35,238 nt of DNA from an uncultured Chloroflexus sp. (GTDB lineage Bacteria; Chloroflexota; Chloroflexia; Chloroflexales; Chloroflexaceae). Positions 13,188-35,238 of this stretch are shown here, piece by piece (the first letter of the stretch is position 1; each line of letters begins with the position of its first letter). Location of the stretch: the NCBI RefSeq assembly GCF_937951745.1, contig NZ_CALFBQ010000068.1, positions 1 to 35,238 of the forward strand, written 5' to 3'. The notes beneath the pieces are model-generated. The model saw only the letters and a list, made by a program, of their open reading frames with translations, did no database searches and was not told where the DNA came from. A program made the translations under genes and the position numbers.

Positions 13188-15662
13188 CTATCGCCTTACC
13201 CGATAGATCACCACTTCGTCTTGAGCAAAAACAACCTCACCGATCTGTGCGAGCGCAGCTAGCCCTTCTGGCGGGTATTGTTCACGTTCAAGCGCACCAA
13301 CATAAATGTAGTCGATCCCGTATTTATCGACTAAGGCTCGGATTCGATCTCGATCACCGCTGCGGTAGATTGCATCAACGGCCACACAACGCGGGCCGAG
13401 TTCGGCCAGCGCTGCCGGGTCGCCGCCGCGCCACTGCATTTCGTGGCCCACCCAACCCAGCACAGTGGCATGCCCGCTCGCTGCCGCCACCCCGCCGAAG
13501 CCTTGCCAGTTGTACGAGCCGCCGCAACGCGGTGGTTCGCTGCCGGCCACAACTGCGGCGTCATTCTCTACCGCCGCTGCTTCAAGTACCACGCTGCCCG
13601 CCGGTACGTTATAGCGCAACCACGCCAGCGAGGCTAAGCCGGCGGCGGTTTGCTCGCGGGGGGTATAGCCATTGAGGCCGCGCAACGGCCCGCGGCTGAT
13701 GTCACGGGTGACGATGAAGGGGTACACTAGCGCGCCGGCCAGCAAGAGAGCTGTGCCGGCACTGATCAGGCTCGCCGCTAGCCGCCGCCAACCCGTCGCC
13801 TGCGCCCATACCCACCACAGCCCGACTGGGGCCAGCCCGCCCCAGATCAGCCAGACCTGATAGTAAAACTTAAAGACGGTATTCATTCGGGAGGAAAGCC
13901 CCTCGAACACGTCACGGATGTAGACGATCTCAACCCCAAACAAGATGGCGCTACCCAACGCCACGAGCAGCAACCCGAAGCGGAAACCGGGTTCGGCGGC
14001 ATTGAGTGCCTGCCAGCTTGCCCACAGCGTGATACCGGCCAGCGCCAGCAACGGAAAATTAATCAGCAGACCAACAGTGAGGAGGATGAGCGGCAGCCAC
14101 AGCACCCAGCGCGGCATTGCTAAGCCGGCTAACGATTCGTTCTCTGGTGAGCGGTAAAGATAGCTGCCGGCGATGATCGGTAGCGCCATCAGGCCGAAGA
14201 TGATCATAAACTCGTGCCAGCCGCTGCGTTCGCCGAGGTAGATACCAATGATACTAGTTAGCCGACTAAGAATTGGCAGGTCAATCCACGGCGTCGCCCC
14301 ACCTACCGGCGAGCGAAAGGTGAGGTGAAACGGCAGAAAGAGGGCAAAAGCCAGCACCGCCACAATCACCGCTTCGCGCAGCCATGCCCGCCATGGAAAC
14401 GCAGCACCGTCGCGCCGGCAAGCCAGCGCCAACCCGCCCCAGTAGAGCAGCAGATAGGTGGGCAGATCCCAACTGTTGATCGCATACAAGCTACCGAGGA
14501 TCACCCCGTGCAAAGCGCGCAACAGCCAGCCAGATCGTCCGGCAGGGAACAGCGCACCATTGATAGGCAGGGAAGCTCCGCTACTCTGCGCCGCTACCGC
14601 TAGCGCCAACCCCATCGCCAGTGTCGCGAAGGGCAGCGCCATCACGTGCGGGTGCATGTCGCCGAGGCGAAAGCTGAAGAAGGGGAATTCGGTGATAGTG
14701 TAACGCCGCTCGCTGCGCGGCGGATCCCCAGCGACGCGATAGCTGTCCCAGAGCGAGCGCGATGGCCACCACCAGTTGAAGTCGTTCCATGTATCAGCCC
14801 GCCGCCATCCGTCAACCGTGCCAAAATCGTAAGTTGCGGTTTGGGCCGGGTAGGGTAAGGTGATGAAGGTCTCGCCACGCAGGGCCTGCCCGAGTGCAGC
14901 AAGGAGCTGACGGTCATCGAGCACTACCGCCCGTTCATCGCCAACGATCACTTGGATCGCGCCAGATTGATTGCCGGCTAACAAAATAATCGCAGCGCCG
15001 AGCACACCCAGCGCACTGCGGATCAAGGCTGGCGGCGGGCGATGCAACAAGCCGAGCAGGGCGTTGATCACACCAAACGCGCCTTGTGCGGTCATCGCGG
15101 CCAGCAGCGCTAACGCGAGGTTGTAGGCAGTTGCCGGCGGCAAGCCGCTGAGCATAGCCGGGATGGCCATGAGCAAGTAGCCGAAGTAGTAGTAGTTGAT
15201 ACTGTAGCCGGATAACCACGGGTCGTTGGGCGGGAAGAAGCCGCTGCGCTGGATCGCGTTGAAGAAAGCGAAGTCCATGGGGCGTTCGGTGCCCCACGGG
15301 GTGGGGTCGTGGGCACGCAGCCAGACCACGCCGAGCAAGGTGGTCAGAAAGATCGCTTCGCCGGCCAGCGTTGGGCCAAGTGGCGGCAGCCGTCGTTGCT
15401 CGCTGCGCCAAAGCCAGAGCCAGCCGCTGCCGGCAATGATCGCCAGACAGATGACGATCAGCGGTGCTTCAAAACGGCCGAGTCCTAACATTGCTAACAG
15501 CCATGCTAGAAAGCCGGTGAACAGCAACCCCAGCGGGCGAGCAAAGGCAGCACCGGCTCCCGGCAGATGGCCGAAAAGGCGCGCAGTTGCCGGCCAGCCC
15601 GCCAGCCCGAAGATAAGACCAATCACCCACCAGATCAAGACTTCGCCGGCAACCGCGCTCAT
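13188..15662 (-). CDS. DUF2298 (Chlor_Arch_YYY) multi-spanning membrane protein
   Basis: The product is an 824-residue integral membrane protein with many hydrophobic segments and a soluble C-terminal part. Family motifs are ERPMDFAFFNAIQRS (about 126-140), NYYYFG (156-161), TEFPFFSF...GDMHPH near 327, RMNTVFKF near 591, and YGIDYIYVGALEREQYPPEG close to the C-terminus. DUF2298 has no proven function that I know of; its layout suggests a GT-C-like glycosyltransferase (inference). I chose ATG 15662 rather than the longer frame because its ATGA overlaps the TGA stop of the upstream gene and GGAGGG lies six bases before it, so translational coupling is expected. The two genes therefore almost certainly form one operon. 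Confidence 0.9.
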   Translation of the reverse strand: MSAVAGEVLIWWVIGLIFGLAGWPATARLFGHLPGAGAAFARPLGLLFTGFLAWLLAMLGLGRFEAPLIVICLAIIAGSGWLWLWRSEQRRLPPLGPTLAGEAIFLTTLLGVVWLRAHDPTPWGTERPMDFAFFNAIQRSGFFPPNDPWLSGYSINYYYFGYLLMAIPAMLSGLPPATAYNLALALLAAMTAQGAFGVINALLGLLHRPPPALIRSALGVLGAAIILLAGNQSGAIQVIVGDERAVVLDDRQLLAALGQALRGETFITLPYPAQTATYDFGTVDGWRRADTWNDFNWWWPSRSLWDSYRVAGDPPRSERRYTITEFPFFSFRLGDMHPHVMALPFATLAMGLALAVAAQSSGASLPINGALFPAGRSGWLLRALHGVILGSLYAINSWDLPTYLLLYWGGLALACRRDGAAFPWRAWLREAVIVAVLAFALFLPFHLTFRSPVGGATPWIDLPILSRLTSIIGIYLGERSGWHEFMIIFGLMALPIIAGSYLYRSPENESLAGLAMPRWVLWLPLILLTVGLLINFPLLALAGITLWASWQALNAAEPGFRFGLLLVALGSAILFGVEIVYIRDVFEGLSSRMNTVFKFYYQVWLIWGGLAPVGLWWVWAQATGWRRLAASLISAGTALLLAGALVYPFIVTRDISRGPLRGLNGYTPREQTAAGLASLAWLRYNVPAGSVVLEAAAVENDAAVVAGSEPPRCGGSYNWQGFGGVAAASGHATVLGWVGHEMQWRGGDPAALAELGPRCVAVDAIYRSGDRDRIRALVDKYGIDYIYVGALEREQYPPEGLAALAQIGEVVFAQDEVVIYRVRR

Positions 15663-18600
15663 GGTTGCCCTCCGTTCAGGTTCGCCAGCATGCGCTGTGC
15701 TTCTCCGGCCCACGGCCCGTCAGGGGCAAGCTGCAGGTAGCGCTGTAAGGCGTCTTTGGCGAGTGTGGTCTGGTTACGCAACAAAAAGACACGGGCCAAT
15801 TGGAAATAAGGATCAGGCAACGCCGGGTCAATACTCATCGCTTGGCCTAACGCAAGCTCGGCCTTATCAAGTCTTCCCCAGTCGATCAACGCCGTCGCGA
15901 GTTTGTTATAGTTACCTGCCGTTGGGCTAGCCCGGGCCGCAGCAAGGTACGCCTGCTCCGCTTCATCATACCGACCGGCATCGGCCAAAATATCACCCCA
16001 TAGGTGATGCAGCCCGACATCATCGGGATTCGCAGCCGCTGCAGTAGCTAAGATTTGAGCCGCCTCGAACAATCGTCCCTGTTTGCGATAGGCTTCGGCC
16101 AGCCCAAAGGCTAGCGGCGCGTTGGTAGGTTGCGCAGCGACGGCGACCTCAAGCTCGGACAGATCGACCGCTGGTTCGTTAGGTGGTGGTGGCGGCGGTT
16201 GGGCCGCCGCCGGCATTTCCGCGCGCAACAGCCGGTAGCTGTCAGGCAAGGGCCGCACTTGATAGATCGCAACGCCATCTTGCTCGTAGACCGGACGCAG
16301 GTAGCGGTCGCGCAAGACGGTGAACTTTTCCATACCCTGTGGGTAGAAGGCGCGCTCGACACTGCCGATATAGACATAATCGACATTGTAGCGAGCCAAA
16401 ATCCGCAACGCCGTTTCGGGATCGTTGGTGGTAAAGAAGGTCTCAATATCGCGCACGCGCCGTCTGGTTACCACCGGATCGCGCTGCTCATCGGCGTGGA
16501 GGGCACTGATGACAGTAGGCAAGCCGGTGGCCGCCGCGACACGAATGCCGTAGGCGCGGTAAAACCAGAGGCTCGATTGGGCGACGATCGGCGTACCGTT
16601 GATCTGCTGGTTAAGCCAGCGAATTGCCGCCGCGTCGCCACGCAGATCGACGTGTACCATCGTCGTACCCGGCGCACATCCACCAAATGCGTTGCAGTCA
16701 TAGGTGAAGCTGGCCTGTTCCATAAACGCCATACCATCGAGCGTAGGGCCGGTTTCTATCGGGAAGCGGGTCACGAGCCGCGAAGGCACGGCGACCGGCA
16801 CGTAGCTAGCTGCGATCAATGCGGGAATGGCAATAACGGCGAGCGCTGCGGCGGTTGCTGGTTGGCCGCCGCGATGATTAAGCCACACGAGCATGCGTGG
16901 CAAGAGACCGGCAGCGGCTAGCCCCAGCAGCACCCAAACGTGCAAGCCGAACTTAAAGACGGTGTTCATCCGGTACCAGTCGCTGCCATCGAGATGATCA
17001 CGGATATAGACCACTTCGACACCGAGCGAGATGGCCCATGCTAGCCATGCCAGCAGCAGCGCGTACCATGCCGGTGCGCCGGCAGCCCGCCGTGCCAGTA
17101 GCAAGGTAGTCATCGCCAGCAGCGCCAATAGGCTGATCCGCAGTGCCCATTCAGGCAGCGCCGCGCTGACGATGAGCACGATGCCAGTTCCGCTCAGCAG
17201 CAGTGTCCACGACTGTGCCGGCAGATGCCGGCGCCAGCGTTGCAACGCCGCGCCAAGGATCACCGGTATGACGATGGTTAGCGGCAGACCATAGAGCAAG
17301 ATGTAGTCGAGTGGCAGGGTGACGTGGCTTGTTACCAGCCCGATCCCACCCACCATCGGCCAATAGCGGTCGAAGAAGGGAGCAAAGAGCGCGAGTGATC
17401 CGATCCCTAGCCCAATCGCTTTCGCCGCAGCCAACGTGATCACCGGCCAGCGCCAACCAGCACGCCGCACTGCGCCGGCAATGATGGTGATCCCAACCAG
17501 CAACCCGTAGGTTGGGAAATCCCACGAGTTGGTGACGGCCAGTGTGCCGAGGGTCAGCGCACTCAGCGCCCAGATCGTGCGCCCTTTGCCAAAGATCAAT
17601 TGCCACGCGCAAGCGATCGCTAACAGCGAGAGCGGCAATGCGATCAGGTGCGGGTGCAGATCGGCGTAGAGGAAGCTAAAGAGCGGAAACTCGTTGATCG
17701 TGTACGGAATGACCCGGCTCGGCCCGACAAACCAATCGCCGAGCAGGCCGACATTACCGCTGAGCAGCAGACGTAAACCGTTAGCGCCTTGCGACCATCC
17801 CGCTGCGATCAGGCTGGTGAGATTGCCGGCCAGCCCGATCAAGGCCAGCGCAACCAACCCGTACCGTCGCCGCTCACCCAACCGCGTCCCTAGTTCATAC
17901 GCACCAGCCAGCAACATGCCGAAGAGAGTGGCCAGCGCCAGATTGAAGCCGATCGCCGGATCGAGACCGAGCAGCTTGATCGGCAGCGACATCAGATAGA
18001 GACCGTAATAGTAATAGTTGATGTAGCCGTTGCTGTAGAACGGGTCGTAAGGCGGCATGATCGGGCTGCGCAAGATGGCGTTGAGGAATCCTTGCTCCAT
18101 GGGCTTTTCACCGCCCCAAATCGGATGCCACAGATCGGGATTAAGCGCGCGAATGACGGTCATCGCCGCAAAACCGGCCAAAAAGATGACTTCTCCGGGA
18201 ACGACTGCGCGCCATGCAACCCGGTCAGGCCGCACACCGCGCATCCAGAGCGCAAGCGTGATCCCGGCCATTACTGACAGTCCGCCAATGATACCTACGG
18301 TATCGTAACGCCAGAGACCCAGACTCGTCGGCAGCCAGATGGCATAACCGAGCATGATCAAACCAACGGGCCGCGCCCACGCCAACCCGGTTCGACCGAG
18401 CGCGGCATACGCTGGCAGCACGCCAAGGCCGGCGATCAGATACCAGACCAGTAGCCATGCCACGACTCCCAGCCATTGTTGTTCGCTCAGCAACGTATTC
18501 CAACCCAACCGGCCCGTTGCCGGCAGCTCTTGCACCGGTTGCACCAATTCGAGGGCGGGGATGGTGCGCACGCTCGGTGGGCGGATCGGCAGGTCGTTCG

Positions 18601-31924: not shown

Positions 31925-32037
31925 ATTATCTCCAGTATAGGTGGGGATTCGGCAAATATATCGTGCATGATACCATAGGGTGAGGAAGTAGTGAGTAACA
32001 ATACCTCTGTTAGGTTATCGCTGAGGAGAGTTTGATA

Positions 32038-33084
32038 ATGCATGAAGCGGTTGAATTTCTCATTCGCCTCTTGCGCACGCCATCGTTATCGGGCCACGAA
32101 GCGGCGGCGGTGCAGGTGATGGTCGAGCAGATGGCGGCTTTTGGCTGGGAAGCATTCGTTGATGAGTCGGGCAGCGCGGTTGGGCATGTGGGCACAAGTG
32201 GGCCGCTGGTGGTGTTGCTCGGCCATATTGATACTGTGCCGGGCGAGGTGCCGGTGCGGATCGAGGATGGTAAACTGTACGGACGAGGCGCGGTTGATGC
32301 CAAAGGGCCGCTGGCAACGTTTGTGTGGGCGGCGCGGCGGGCCGAATTGGCCGGCACGCTTAACTGTCGGCTGGCGATCATCGGTGCAACCGAGGAAGAG
32401 GCGGCCAGTTCGCGCGGCGCACATGCCGCCCGTGACCGGTATCGTCCGGCATTCTGCGTGATCGGCGAGCCAAGCGGTTGGGATCGGATCACGCTGGGGT
32501 ATAAAGGACGCTTGCTGACGCACTACCGGTATCAGCAGCCGGCTGCCCACAGCGCTGGTGAACAGCGTGCCGCACCTGAGCAGATGGTTGATTTTTGGCG
32601 TGCAGTTGAACAACATTGTCAGCATGTGAATGCGGGGCGTGAGCGACTGTTCGAGCAGTTGATCCCCTCGTTGCGCCGCGTGAGCAGTGGCAGCGACGGA
32701 ATCAGTGAATGGGTAGAAGCGACTGTTGGTCTGCGCCTCCCACCCGGCATTGATCCGCACGAGTTAGCCGAGACCGTGCGCAGGCTGGCCGGCCCGGCAG
32801 AGGTAGGATTTGAAGGGGCCTGTCCCGCCTTCCAAAGCTCACGCACCACGCCGCTGGCCAGCGCCTTTGTGCGTGCTATCCGCCAACACGGCGGTCAACC
32901 GGCCTTCTTGCACAAAACCGGCACTGCCGATATGAACGTGGTCGGGCCGGTGTGGCAATGCCCGATCGTCGCCTACGGGCCGGGCGACTCGCGCCTTGAC
33001 CACACCCCCGACGAGCACGTCGAGCTGGCTGAATACGAGCGGGCGATTGCGGTGTTGGCCGAGGTGCTGGCGCAATTGCGGTGA
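32038..33084 (+). CDS. lysK: [LysW]-lysine/ornithine hydrolase, M20 metallopeptidase family
   Basis: The product releases lysine (or ornithine) from the amino-group carrier protein LysW at the end of the alpha-aminoadipate lysine pathway. The 348-residue protein has the dinuclear-metal residues of M20 enzymes: His63 in GHIDTVPGE, Asp87 in GAVDAKGPL, the catalytic Glu-Glu in GATEEEA (119-120), the Glu in IGEPSGW and the final His in [10 protein letters not shown]. The segments [10 protein letters not shown] and [18 protein letters not shown] are typical of LysK rather than ArgE or DapE. The start is ATG 32038, nine bases after GAGGAG; the frame extends two codons upstream to a TTG without support. 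No LysW or other pathway gene lies in the window, so the pathway is scattered. The gene is divergent from the RsbW-like gene. Confidence 0.88.
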
Positions 33085-33204: not shown

Positions 33205-33233
33205 TTGACGCACGGTAGCAATTATGGTACTAT
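33205..33233 (+). promoter_or_regulatory. Sigma-70-type promoter of the cobalamin riboswitch transcript
   Basis: TTGACG (33205-33210, five of six consensus bases) and TACTAT (33228-33233, four of six) are exactly 17 bp apart. The expected start is near 33240, so the leader would begin just before the riboswitch. The position relative to the aptamer makes this one of the best-supported promoters in the window. Confidence 0.7.
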
Positions 33234-33235
33234 CG

Positions 33236-33275
33236 CCGCAATTGAATATAAGTAATTGCGGGGTAGCAACCCCGC
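33236..33275 (+). other. Two overlapping, mutually exclusive hairpins at the start of the leader
   Basis: The first hairpin is ccgcaatt/aattgcgg (33236-33243 with 33254-33261). The second is gcggggt/accccgc (33258-33264 with 33269-33275). They share 33258-33261, so only one can form fully. They lie at or just after the expected transcription start, ahead of the B12 aptamer. Confidence 0.45.
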
Positions 33276-33276
33276 C

Positions 33277-33392
33277 AGCAGGGAGCCCGGAGGAAGCGAA
33301 GGGCTTAATTGGGGGAAGTCCGGTCAAAGGCCGGCGCAGTCCACGCTACTGTAGGTCGCCATCGGCGACGAGCCAGAATGCCCGTCCCTGCT
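33277..33392 (+). promoter_or_regulatory. Cobalamin (B12) riboswitch aptamer
   Basis: The outer P1 stem pairs agcaggga (33277-33284) with tccctgct (33385-33392) perfectly. P2 pairs agccc (33284-33288) with gggct (33301-33305). Then come the conserved core elements of cobalamin riboswitches: GGGGGAAGTCCGGTC followed by AAAGGCCGGCGCAGTCC, the ACTGTAGG segment, a gtcgcc/ggcgac hairpin (33355-33369), and the B12 box GAGCCAGAATGCCCGTC. I recognise this from the known consensus of the family; the ligand form (adenosyl- or hydroxo-cobalamin) is not decided. A promoter lies just upstream and an intrinsic terminator 72 bp downstream, so binding most likely stops transcription of the two exported-protein genes that follow. 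Confidence 0.92.
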
Positions 33393-33464
33393 TGTTCGCT
33401 ATCACACCCGCGCTGGAAAGGGGGTGAGGCGCGCGCAAGATTGGCGTTCTTTCTTGCCTTCGCA

Positions 33465-33492
33465 CCCTTCCACAGCCGTGGAAGGGGTTTTT
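33465..33492 (+). terminator. Intrinsic terminator of the riboswitch expression platform
   Basis: A perfect 9-bp stem (cccttccac at 33465-33473, gtggaaggg at 33478-33486) with a four-base loop is followed by G and five T (33488-33492). It lies between aptamer and gene. Upstream ggaaagggggtgaggcg (33415-33431) could pair with cgcacccttcc (33461-33471) and act as antiterminator (inference). Confidence 0.85.
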
Positions 33493-33550
33493 GTTGTCGG
33501 GGCAATAGATCTGTTGGATTGTGATGTTTTGTTGAACGAAAGGGATCTGC

Positions 33551-34612
33551 ATGATGCGCCGGGTTTTTGCACTATTCCTTGCCACGGTGTTGAGTATCGC
33601 CGCTTGGCTGCCGGTCGCTGCGCAGGGCACGGCGGTCGAATCGGCGCTGAAATGGGTCGCCAGTCAACAGCAAGCCGACGGGAGCTTTGCCGGTTTTGGG
33701 CCGGGTGACACAGCCGACGCGATCGTCGCTTTCGTAGCTGGTGGTCAGCAACCGTCGGCCAATGCCGTGACCTACCTCGCCGGGCAGGCAGCCACCTACG
33801 GCACCTCATCAGCCGGTGCGACGGCCAAACTGATATTGGCCGCCGTCGCCGCTCAGAGCGATCCGCTCAACTTCGGCGGGGTCAATCTAGCCCAACAGCT
33901 TGGTTCAACGTACAACGCAACGACCGGTCAGTACGGTAGCGATGTGTACGGTCATGCGCTCGCATTATTAGCGATCAAGGCAATGGGTGTGCAACCGCCA
34001 GCGGCGGCGATTGACCGGCTGATCGCGCTGCAATTGCGCGACGGCGGCTGGAGCTTTGATGGCACGGCGGCAACCGGTAGCGATACGAACACCACGGCGT
34101 TGGCAGTGATGGCGCTGGCTGGCCGGGCCCGCGCCGCTGATGCGCTGAACGCGGCGCGGGCTTACCTGCGCGGCCAGCAAAACCCTGATGGCGGCTTCCC
34201 CTACTCGCAGACATCGCCGTTTGGCAATGCCAGCGATGCTAACTCGACGGCAGCGGTGACGATGGCCATCATTGCCCTCGGCGAAGATCCCAGCGGCGCA
34301 GCGTGGAAGCAAAGCGACGCGACGCCACTCAGTGCGTTGGCCGCCTTCCAAAACAGCAGCGGTGCGTTCCGCTATCAAAATGCGATGCCCGATGATAATG
34401 CGCTCGCGACCTATCAGGCTATTCCGGCGCTGGTCGGGAAGGCATTGCCGGTGGCGACGACCTCGATCCCAGCAGCGCAGAGCCTGATTGCGCCGGCGAC
34501 TACGCTGCCGCGCACTGCTGGCGAAGCACAGCCGCTATTGCCGCTGCTGGCGCTGGCTGGCTTGCTGGCGTTGGCGGCAGGGCAAGCGTTGCGGCGGACG
34601 CAGGTAGGATAA
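33551..34612 (+). CDS. Exported alpha/alpha-toroid (terpenoid cyclase-fold) protein, putative cobalamin-binding, sortase-like C-terminus
   Basis: The 353-residue protein starts with a signal peptide (RRVFALFLATVLSIAAWLPVAAQ, cleavage expected near residue 25). It continues as an alpha/alpha barrel with prenyltransferase/squalene-cyclase-type repeats: ALKWVASQQQADGSF, LIALQLRDGGWSF and LRGQQNPDGGFPYS, each with the Q-x-x-DG-G/S-W/F pattern. The terpenoid cyclase fold is also that of the N-terminal domain of transcobalamin and intrinsic factor. The C-terminus is LPRTAGE (319-325), a hydrophobic helix and RRTQVG, like a sortase sorting signal. ATG 33551 (or the next codon) has AGGG six bases upstream. 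Because a cobalamin riboswitch controls it, a B12-binding or uptake role is more likely than terpene cyclisation; secretion also argues against a cyclase. Function remains inferred. Confidence 0.85.
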   Translation: MMRRVFALFLATVLSIAAWLPVAAQGTAVESALKWVASQQQADGSFAGFGPGDTADAIVAFVAGGQQPSANAVTYLAGQAATYGTSSAGATAKLILAAVAAQSDPLNFGGVNLAQQLGSTYNATTGQYGSDVYGHALALLAIKAMGVQPPAAAIDRLIALQLRDGGWSFDGTAATGSDTNTTALAVMALAGRARAADALNAARAYLRGQQNPDGGFPYSQTSPFGNASDANSTAAVTMAIIALGEDPSGAAWKQSDATPLSALAAFQNSSGAFRYQNAMPDDNALATYQAIPALVGKALPVATTSIPAAQSLIAPATTLPRTAGEAQPLLPLLALAGLLALAAGQALRRTQVG

Positions 34613-34629
34613 TGAGAAGATAGCTTGCA

Positions 34630-34650
34630 GGGCACAGCGCTGCTGTGCCC
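34630..34650 (+). other. Perfect hairpin between the two B12-locus genes
   Basis: Arms gggcacagc (34630-34638) and gctgtgccc (34642-34650) pair over 9 bp around a three-base loop, eight bases before the next ATG. It lacks a T-tract. It could hide the already weak ribosome-binding region of the downstream gene or protect the upstream message. Confidence 0.5.
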
Positions 34651-34658
34651 ATACAGCG

Positions 34659-35238
34659 ATGAAGCGAATTTTTCAACTTGTTGGCTTAATCGCGATCGCG
34701 CTTCTCTCTGGCGTGGCTGCCGCGCAACCGGCGGTTAACCGCGCCGGAGTAGTCGTGCGGTTTGGCAATGGCGAAGTTGTTACTGCGTGCGTCGAGTTTA
34801 GTGAGCCGTCGATCAGCGGATTAGAGCTGCTCGAACGTAGTGGCCTGCCGGTCATTAGCCAGCAAAGCAGCATTGGCGCAGCGGTATGCAAAATTGGGCG
34901 CGAAGGGTGTGATTATCCGGCCACCAGTTGTTTCTGTGCTCGCGATCAGCAGGGTCGGGCGGTGTATTGGGCCTTCTACCGGCGCGAAGCGGGTGGGTGG
35001 CGCTACTCTAACCTCGGTGCGAGTAGCGTGCGGGTGAGCGATGGCGATCTGCACGGGTGGGCATGGGGGCCGGGTGATGCCAGTGGCGGGGCGGTTCCGC
35101 CTCATCTGGAACTCGCCGATGTATGCCGGAGTGAAGCGGCGGAAGCGGCGACTATAGCGCCGACAGCAACGGCAGCACCTACCACAACGCCACCGCCGGC
35201 GGCGACGGCAGCACCCACCGCAACGGCAGCACCTACCA
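34659..35238 (+). CDS. Exported DUF4430 (transcobalamin C-terminal-like) protein, 3' end cut by window edge
   Basis: The frame is open from ATG 34659 to the right edge (193 codons). A signal peptide (KRIFQLVGLIAIALLSGVAAA) is followed by a beta-rich domain with the features of DUF4430: VVVRFGNGEVVTACVEF, SGLELLERSGLPV, several cysteines (CKIGREGCDYPATSCFC), YWAFYRREAGGWRYSNLGAS and DGDLHGWAWGPG. DUF4430 corresponds to the C-terminal domain of eukaryotic cobalamin carriers. From about residue 167 the chain becomes a Thr/Pro/Ala repeat (TATAAPT), a likely stalk through the envelope; the end lies outside the window. It follows the toroid protein by 46 bp on the same strand and so should be under the same riboswitch. 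The ribosome-binding site is weak. Confidence 0.83.
   Translation, partial: MKRIFQLVGLIAIALLSGVAAAQPAVNRAGVVVRFGNGEVVTACVEFSEPSISGLELLERSGLPVISQQSSIGAAVCKIGREGCDYPATSCFCARDQQGRAVYWAFYRREAGGWRYSNLGASSVRVSDGDLHGWAWGPGDASGGAVPPHLELADVCRSEAAEAATIAPTATAAPTTTPPPAATAAPTATAAPT

Follow-up and report, generated by a model that had tools for sequence, protein, structure and literature searches.

A cobalamin-riboswitch-preceded pair of exported proteins in Chloroflexus is predicted to form a two-part, transcobalamin-like corrinoid-capture device

What does a cobalamin riboswitch govern at the end of a contig from an uncultured Chloroflexus sp., where the genes that follow it encode two exported proteins? 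The stretch of DNA analysed here (the window, 35,238 nucleotides) is the whole of contig NZ_CALFBQ010000068.1 (G000:C68), one of 94 contigs in a genome of 4.25 Mb, and the system occupies its right-hand end (+ strand): a riboswitch, an alpha/alpha-toroid protein (P1) and a beta-domain protein (P2). We consider it likely that P1 and P2 are a two-part, transcobalamin-like device that captures corrinoids outside the cell and feeds an importer of the energy-coupling factor (ECF) class resembling CbrT. The basis is computed and consists of the riboswitch, the gene order, the P2 fold, the homology of the toroid, the fusions of P1 with P2 and of P2 with the S component, and the ECF partners; from these we infer the ligand, the joint clamp, the hand-over and the direction of regulation. 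The two halves have known folds and the transporter is of a known class, and it is their split, anchored and B12-regulated arrangement for which we found no description. An initial annotation had proposed two separate envelope proteins that mirror the halves of transcobalamin, and both the genomic context and the fold support this overall reading.

In the animal B12 carriers, toroid and beta domain belong to one chain, and InterPro ties DUF4430 to the C-terminus of transcobalamin. A DUF4430 domain is also placed at the C-terminus of transcobalamin-like proteins in the accessible part of one report (PMC4350170). We modelled 139 residues of window P2 from an alignment of 48 rows, namely the window protein and 47 non-redundant members of 65 P2 domains from the named loci described below, and obtained a mean predicted local distance difference test score (pLDDT) of 95.6 and a predicted template modelling score (pTM) of 0.89. 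Foldseek ranks 1 to 19 were occupied exclusively by 3u7z, transcobalamin, haptocorrin and intrinsic factor. In VIA-align, 3u7z (Z 12.1) headed haptocorrin (11.8), intrinsic factor (11.5 and 11.0) and transcobalamin (11.5 to 10.7, including the isolated beta domain in 5no0 and 5np4), and the next unrelated chain reached only Z 6.0. Of the DUF4430-type domain that had been suggested for P2, the fold therefore stands, matching the transcobalamin-type beta domain at Z 10.7-11.8; as a DUF4430 member by sequence P2 was rejected, the Pfam profile being unmatched.

By sequence, P2 is instead a distant relative of the NCBIfam SCO2322 family. All 26 rows of the P2 family alignment hit this model at E ≤ 1, with 1.4e-11 as the lowest value; the window protein, which is incomplete, matches it at E 1.8e-7 with 31.6 bits and does not reach the curated cut-off of 85. 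The window holds 193 amino acids of P2, which runs off the contig end within its Thr/Pro/Ala stalk, and its C-terminal membrane anchor is encoded at the start of another contig of 4022 bases (G000:C12; profile positions 248-280, E 4e-8). The nearest named match is a protein of Chloroflexus islandicus with 99% identity. Tandem P2 genes occur in L077, L078, L079, L083, L090 and L104; in most cases the first is short and the second longer.

P1 is predicted to be an alpha/alpha toroid, with the fold modelled for a fused relative (L087; 422 residues, mean pLDDT 87.1, most of the toroid good). The initial annotation had foreseen that homology searches would label the protein a terpene cyclase or prenyltransferase, and SQHop_cyclase_N (E 1.3e-7) and Prenyltrans (E 5.3e-6) were indeed matched in Pfam. 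The NCBIfam SCO2321 family is matched at E 4.8e-34 with 117.9 bits, below its curated cut-off of 300. The Pfam family of eukaryotic cobalamin-binding proteins is absent among the four Pfam families that window P1 matches at E ≤ 1. A P1-family profile was built from alignment A7 (47 rows, 285 positions), in which window P1 is joined by seven P2-P1 fusions and a further 39 P1 rows, the partial fusion L119 being left out. This profile matches the alpha domain of transcobalamin-1 (haptocorrin; 4kki) at E 5.4e-5 over positions 29-283 of 285.

The toroid fold is not specific to the transcobalamin family and alone decides neither for a carrier nor for an enzyme. Type II terpene cyclases carry the acid motif DxDD, and the beta subunit of protein prenyltransferases has a zinc site of Cys, His and Asp. 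DxDD occurs in none of 67 toroid domains, 43 of the 67 have no Cys after residue 30, and window P1 has no Cys at all; P1 was rejected as a terpene cyclase or prenyltransferase on the grounds that DxDD is absent and that the zinc-site Cys is missing in most toroids. Six polar positions are strongly conserved among 40 aligned proteins (window numbering): D178 in 38, T182 in 39, N231 in 36, S232 in 39, T233 in 39 and T287 in 37. These residues could form the lining of a putative ligand site.

An extension to the right had been proposed as a check for B12 transporter genes, and it leads to a candidate. In the window's own genome, the contig that begins with the end of P2 continues with CobC, CobS and a CbiQ/EcfT-type protein (Pfam assignments), and all 8 genus genomes arrange these genes as P1-P2-CobC-CobS-EcfT, the window's own doing so across two contigs. 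Two more ECF parts are encoded in the same genome: an S component (G000:C4:70217-70972, E 2.5e-88), present in seven of the eight genomes and missing from one that is 82% complete, and a double EcfA ATPase, EcfAA' (G000:C19:1322-2911, E 3.5e-231), matched in all eight at E ≤ 1e-60. Pfam assigns the S component encoded in these loci to ECF_trnsprt. The only significant solved match of the S-family profile is chain A of 6fnp (182 amino acids, E 3.6e-6), which by its length should be CbrT itself; the folate S component follows at E 0.13. As far as the available part of its description goes, 6FNP is the ECF-CbrT transporter of Lactobacillus delbrueckii and carries both cobalamin and cobinamide (PMC5997447). 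With S, EcfT and EcfA/A' all present and S related to CbrT, the genome is predicted to encode a CbrT-type cobalamin ECF transporter. The ligand of the system is most likely a corrinoid, given the match of S to CbrT, the riboswitch, and CobC and CobS.

The tie to vitamin transport, also anticipated for the downstream context, extends beyond the genus: in many other Chloroflexota loci EcfT, the double EcfA and the S component share the cluster. A search of a named genome collection with the P2-only alignment A4 yielded 58 named loci (L070-L127), by record title mostly from Chloroflexota, with two from metagenome-assembled genomes (MAGs) of Actinobacteria (L114, L124); other outliers are a Gracilibacteria MAG, perhaps mis-binned (L108), and an archaeal MAG (L126). 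The latter, a Candidatus Burarchaeum MAG, has a distant P2-like protein, and neither P1 nor ECF genes were recognised in the fetched stretch. P1 lies within 1 kb of P2 or is fused to it in 53 of the 58 loci and shares the cluster in two more (L110, L116), and no P1 was found in the fetched DNA of L091, L097 and L126. EcfT is present in 38 loci, EcfA of at least 480 amino acids in 30, the S component in 23 and all five parts, P1 and P2 included, in 15, several contigs being too short to show further ECF genes. A phylum-wide profile count (123 of 400 genomes) was not used as a count of systems because many of its matches cover the Thr/Pro stalk only.

Fusions join the parts further. P1 and P2 are encoded in a single open frame in 9 of the 58 loci, and in three (L093, L094, L116) a linker joins the P2 beta domain to the S component within one open frame, so that the beta domain is predicted to be tethered straight to the transporter subunit. 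These P2-S fusions strengthen the proposed hand-over to the importer. In L086 (10500-14483) and L092 (11239-15477), S, EcfT and EcfA lie in one frame, an entire ECF transporter in one chain.

The control region is shared as well. The promoter, cobalamin riboswitch and terminator that the initial annotation had described are all present between 33205 and 33486, as are the exported alpha/alpha-toroid protein and, after it, the exported protein with a Thr/Pro/Ala stalk (Table 1). The aptamer is full-length and above the gathering threshold, and RF00174 is the sole Rfam match at that level in the window. The hairpin with its T-run is the probable expression platform; by eye, 7 of the 8 genus leaders in the alignment retain it. 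The exception is L012 (genome G002), whose leader is non-homologous over the hairpin region and in front of whose P1 no cobalamin riboswitch was found; a transposase-like open reading frame (ORF), TnpB-like by eye, lies upstream of P1 there (14314-16597). The eight genus genomes hold 22 cobalamin riboswitches, 2-4 each, one of which precedes P1 in every genome except G002. An Rfam scan of 863,365 bases found a cobalamin or adenosylcobalamin (AdoCbl) riboswitch in 41 of the 58 named loci (by scan batch 7/11, 10/11, 6/10, 4/8, 8/10 and 6/8); at the density of the genus genomes, that many bases would be expected to hold about half a riboswitch. The riboswitches lie on the same strand and precede the first P1 or P2 domain by 45-373 nucleotides (median 182), distances that run to the domain and not to the start codon.

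Table 1. Features of the system at the right end of the window
Feature	Position	Strand	Evidence
Sigma-70-like promoter, TTGACG-17-TACTAT, TG preceding second hexamer	33205-33233	+	1 found versus mean of 0.3 in shuffles
Cobalamin riboswitch aptamer, RF00174	33264-33404	+	40.8 bits (gathering 31.5), E 3.9e-7, positions 1-189 of 189
Terminator-like hairpin followed by T-run	33465-33486	+	2 terminator-like sites found versus mean of 0.6 in shuffles
P1, exported alpha/alpha-toroid protein, 353 amino acids, hydrophobic N-terminus	33551-34612	+	ORF, Pfam, NCBIfam
P2, exported, beta domain (modelled part 34719-35135) and Thr/Pro/Ala stalk, hydrophobic N-terminus	34659-35238	+	ORF, model

Both proteins would be exposed outside the cell and held in the envelope, to judge from their termini. 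P1 ends in LPRTAGE, a hydrophobic stretch and RR, a putative LPXTG-like anchor in which A occupies the motif position of G; P1 relatives in the genus carry LPRTGG and LPTTGG, and sortases are encoded in 8 of 8 genus genomes. P2 ends in a hydrophobic segment with a basic tail and has no LPXTG-like motif. Among the named loci many P1 proteins are without an LPXTG-like tail: a pattern scan found the motif in 12 of 55 proteins, the one in L125 being plainly false, and passed over a few LPxTGT variants visible by eye. Toroid proteins with two or three tandem toroids occur in L086, L093, L094, L096, L103, L104, L107 and others, and several of them end in a short YLPLVLR-type motif in place of the LPXTG-like tail, possibly another sorting signal. 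In the Thermomicrobia-like loci L099-L102, L105, L106, L112, L113, L118, L123 and L127, the end region of P1 is of the type VQYFERARFEWHP, a sequence type that also appears as repeats in L057.

Taken together, the proposed device would work as follows. At low B12 the riboswitch would let transcription run past the terminator. P1, a toroid on an LPXTG-like or membrane anchor, and P2, a beta domain carried by a Thr/Pro stalk and fixed in the membrane by its C-terminus, would then clamp cobalamin or cobinamide in a manner analogous to the alpha and beta domains of transcobalamin, and the corrinoid would be handed to the CbrT-like ECF importer (S component, EcfT and EcfAA'). In Chloroflexus, CobC and CobS of the operon would act on the lower ligand, and salvaged incomplete corrinoids could be finished inside the cell.

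Several results weigh against this reading. The best matches of the A7 profile are squalene-hopene cyclases (E 1e-39, six stretches), and the L087 toroid is closest to squalene-hopene cyclase (Z 24.4) and drimenyl diphosphate synthase, with prenyltransferases lower at Z about 20-21. Among the 50 matches listed by Foldseek or VIA for the L087 fusion model there is no transcobalamin, a result that does not exclude a likeness. The packing in that model yields no claim because its beta domain and linker are weaker (10-residue means of about 59-87 over residues 11 to 120) and transcobalamin is not among the matches listed; a transcobalamin-like packing of P1 and P2 is a conjecture that the model does not demonstrate. 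The structural match of the pair to transcobalamin that had been put forward accordingly holds in that the P2 model fits the beta domain and the P1 profile reaches haptocorrin, and is limited in that the toroid is nearest to terpene cyclases. By sequence, the P2 profiles found no transcobalamin, and Pfam DUF4430 (PF14478) gave no match in window P2, in any of the 26 family members at E ≤ 1 or in the window's own genome at E ≤ 0.01. In eight fusions P2 precedes P1, opposite to transcobalamin (L086, L087, L092, L093, L094, L095, L107 and the truncated L119); L088, with the order P1-P1-P2, has that of transcobalamin.

The genomic evidence has its own counterweights. The 58 loci are mutually related, and counts among them are not counts of independent events; in 17 of them no riboswitch was matched. 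In the window's own genome, S and EcfAA' lie on contigs other than those of P1 and P2, and Rfam had no hits around the genus S and EcfAA' genes in 15 loci. The genus probably makes B12 itself and is not auxotrophic: CbiC is found in 7 of the 8 genus genomes, and a large cobalamin operon is reported for C. aurantiacus in the accessible portion of one study (PMC3150298). Given CbiC and this operon, B12 import would spare synthesis or salvage incomplete corrinoids.

This last point leads to the alternative that survives best, namely that P1, P2 and the transporter serve mainly the salvage and remodelling of corrinoids, with cobinamide or a foreign cobamide taking the place of B12 as the physiological ligand and being completed by CobC and CobS of the operon. 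CobC and CobS do lie between P2 and EcfT throughout the genus; with a corrin-ring synthesis gene in seven of the eight genomes and the C. aurantiacus operon, finished B12 need not be imported; and cobinamide is among the ligands given for ECF-CbrT in the available text (PMC5997447). However, CobC accompanies only 6 and CobS only 5 of the 58 named loci, and most ECF-bearing loci are without them. We regard salvage as the main role as rather unlikely, and it departs from the proposed capture device in the ligand alone.

Far less probable, in our view, is that P1 and P2 bind corrinoids in the envelope for storage, sensing or competition, with no hand-over to an importer. The encoding of the S and A components elsewhere in Chloroflexus would fit such a role, as would some loci in whose fetched stretch no ECF genes are seen, but EcfT, EcfA and S stand in the cluster in 38, 30 and 23 of the 58 loci, with several contigs too short, and three loci encode P2 in fusion with S itself. 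Weakest of all, and very improbable, is the reading of P1 as an exported enzyme of the terpene cyclase or prenyltransferase class, with P2 a partner or an unrelated surface protein and the riboswitch reflecting a B12-dependent pathway: the Pfam matches and the toroid's top structures favour it, but an enzymatic role is disfavoured by the lack of DxDD and scarcity of Cys, by the hydrophobic N-terminus and anchor, which put P1 outside the cytoplasm, and by its P2 and ECF gene neighbours.

The proposed capture device shares features with several known systems. With transcobalamin, haptocorrin and intrinsic factor it has in common the combination of a toroid and a beta domain, the full-length reach of the P1-family profile to the haptocorrin alpha domain and, in nine loci, the joining of both halves. 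Unlike these single chains, in which the toroid comes first, the window system consists of two separate anchored bacterial proteins; among the nine fused relatives the order is reversed in eight, with the toroid first in one. The P1 toroid is also nearer to terpene cyclases than to the animal carriers, and corrinoid binding by P1 and P2 is a prediction. Among solved structures, P2 comes nearest to 3u7z (RUMGNA_00854 of Ruminococcus gnavus; root-mean-square deviation 1.8 over 96 residues), which differs in bearing the title 'putative metal binding protein' in the available part of its record. The NCBIfam models SCO2321 family membrane protein and SCO2322 family protein cover distant relatives of P1 and P2, which fall below the curated cut-offs, and the model names state no function; judging by their consecutive numbers, SCO2321 and SCO2322 are presumably neighbouring genes in Streptomyces coelicolor.

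Among transporters, ECF-CbrT of L. delbrueckii (6FNP) resembles the window-type system in its S family, EcfT and two ATPase domains, whereas window-type loci have a double-length EcfA, exported P1 and P2, and P2 sometimes joined to S; the accessible part of the ECF-CbrT paper mentions a cbrS gene and no transcobalamin-like part (PMC5997447). A further parallel is found in Lacticaseibacillus, where an annotation reads 'additional lipoprotein component of putative cobalamin ECF transporter', an exported protein tied to such a transporter; the available section of that source gives no domain for it, mentions no toroid partner, and notes a DUF4430 protein encoded near rtpR (PMC9963975). We found no published account of the P1-P2 pair among the papers listed by a literature search that left out most subscription journals and preprints and is no proof of absence.

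Other features of the sequence lie outside the system. Upstream of it (32032-33084, + strand) is a [LysW]-lysine hydrolase gene (486.7 bits, cut-off 363), unrelated to B12, and the other terminator-like site of the scan lies on the minus strand at 33275-33258. The window's own genome has a second cobalamin riboswitch (G000:C61:4535-4678, L155), which precedes a small ORF and an ORF labelled by eye as BtuF-like, with no obvious signal peptide. Another B12-linked binding protein, BtuF-like, may thus exist in this genome beside P1 and P2.

If the proposed reading is true, it would provide a function for two protein families so far named only after S. coelicolor genes. We tentatively extend it to a broader and possible, though not favoured, proposal: that Chloroflexota, and probably some Actinobacteria, possess a two-protein, ECF-coupled counterpart of intrinsic factor, in which the two domains, toroid and beta, whether anchored separately, joined to one another or joined to S, would enclose a corrinoid outside the cell and pass it on to a transporter resembling CbrT; the fusions would then be bacterial transcobalamin-like proteins, and the animal B12 carriers may descend from such a prokaryotic pair. 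Within the narrower reading, P1 and P2 suggest a bacterial counterpart of the animal B12 carriers intrinsic factor and transcobalamin.

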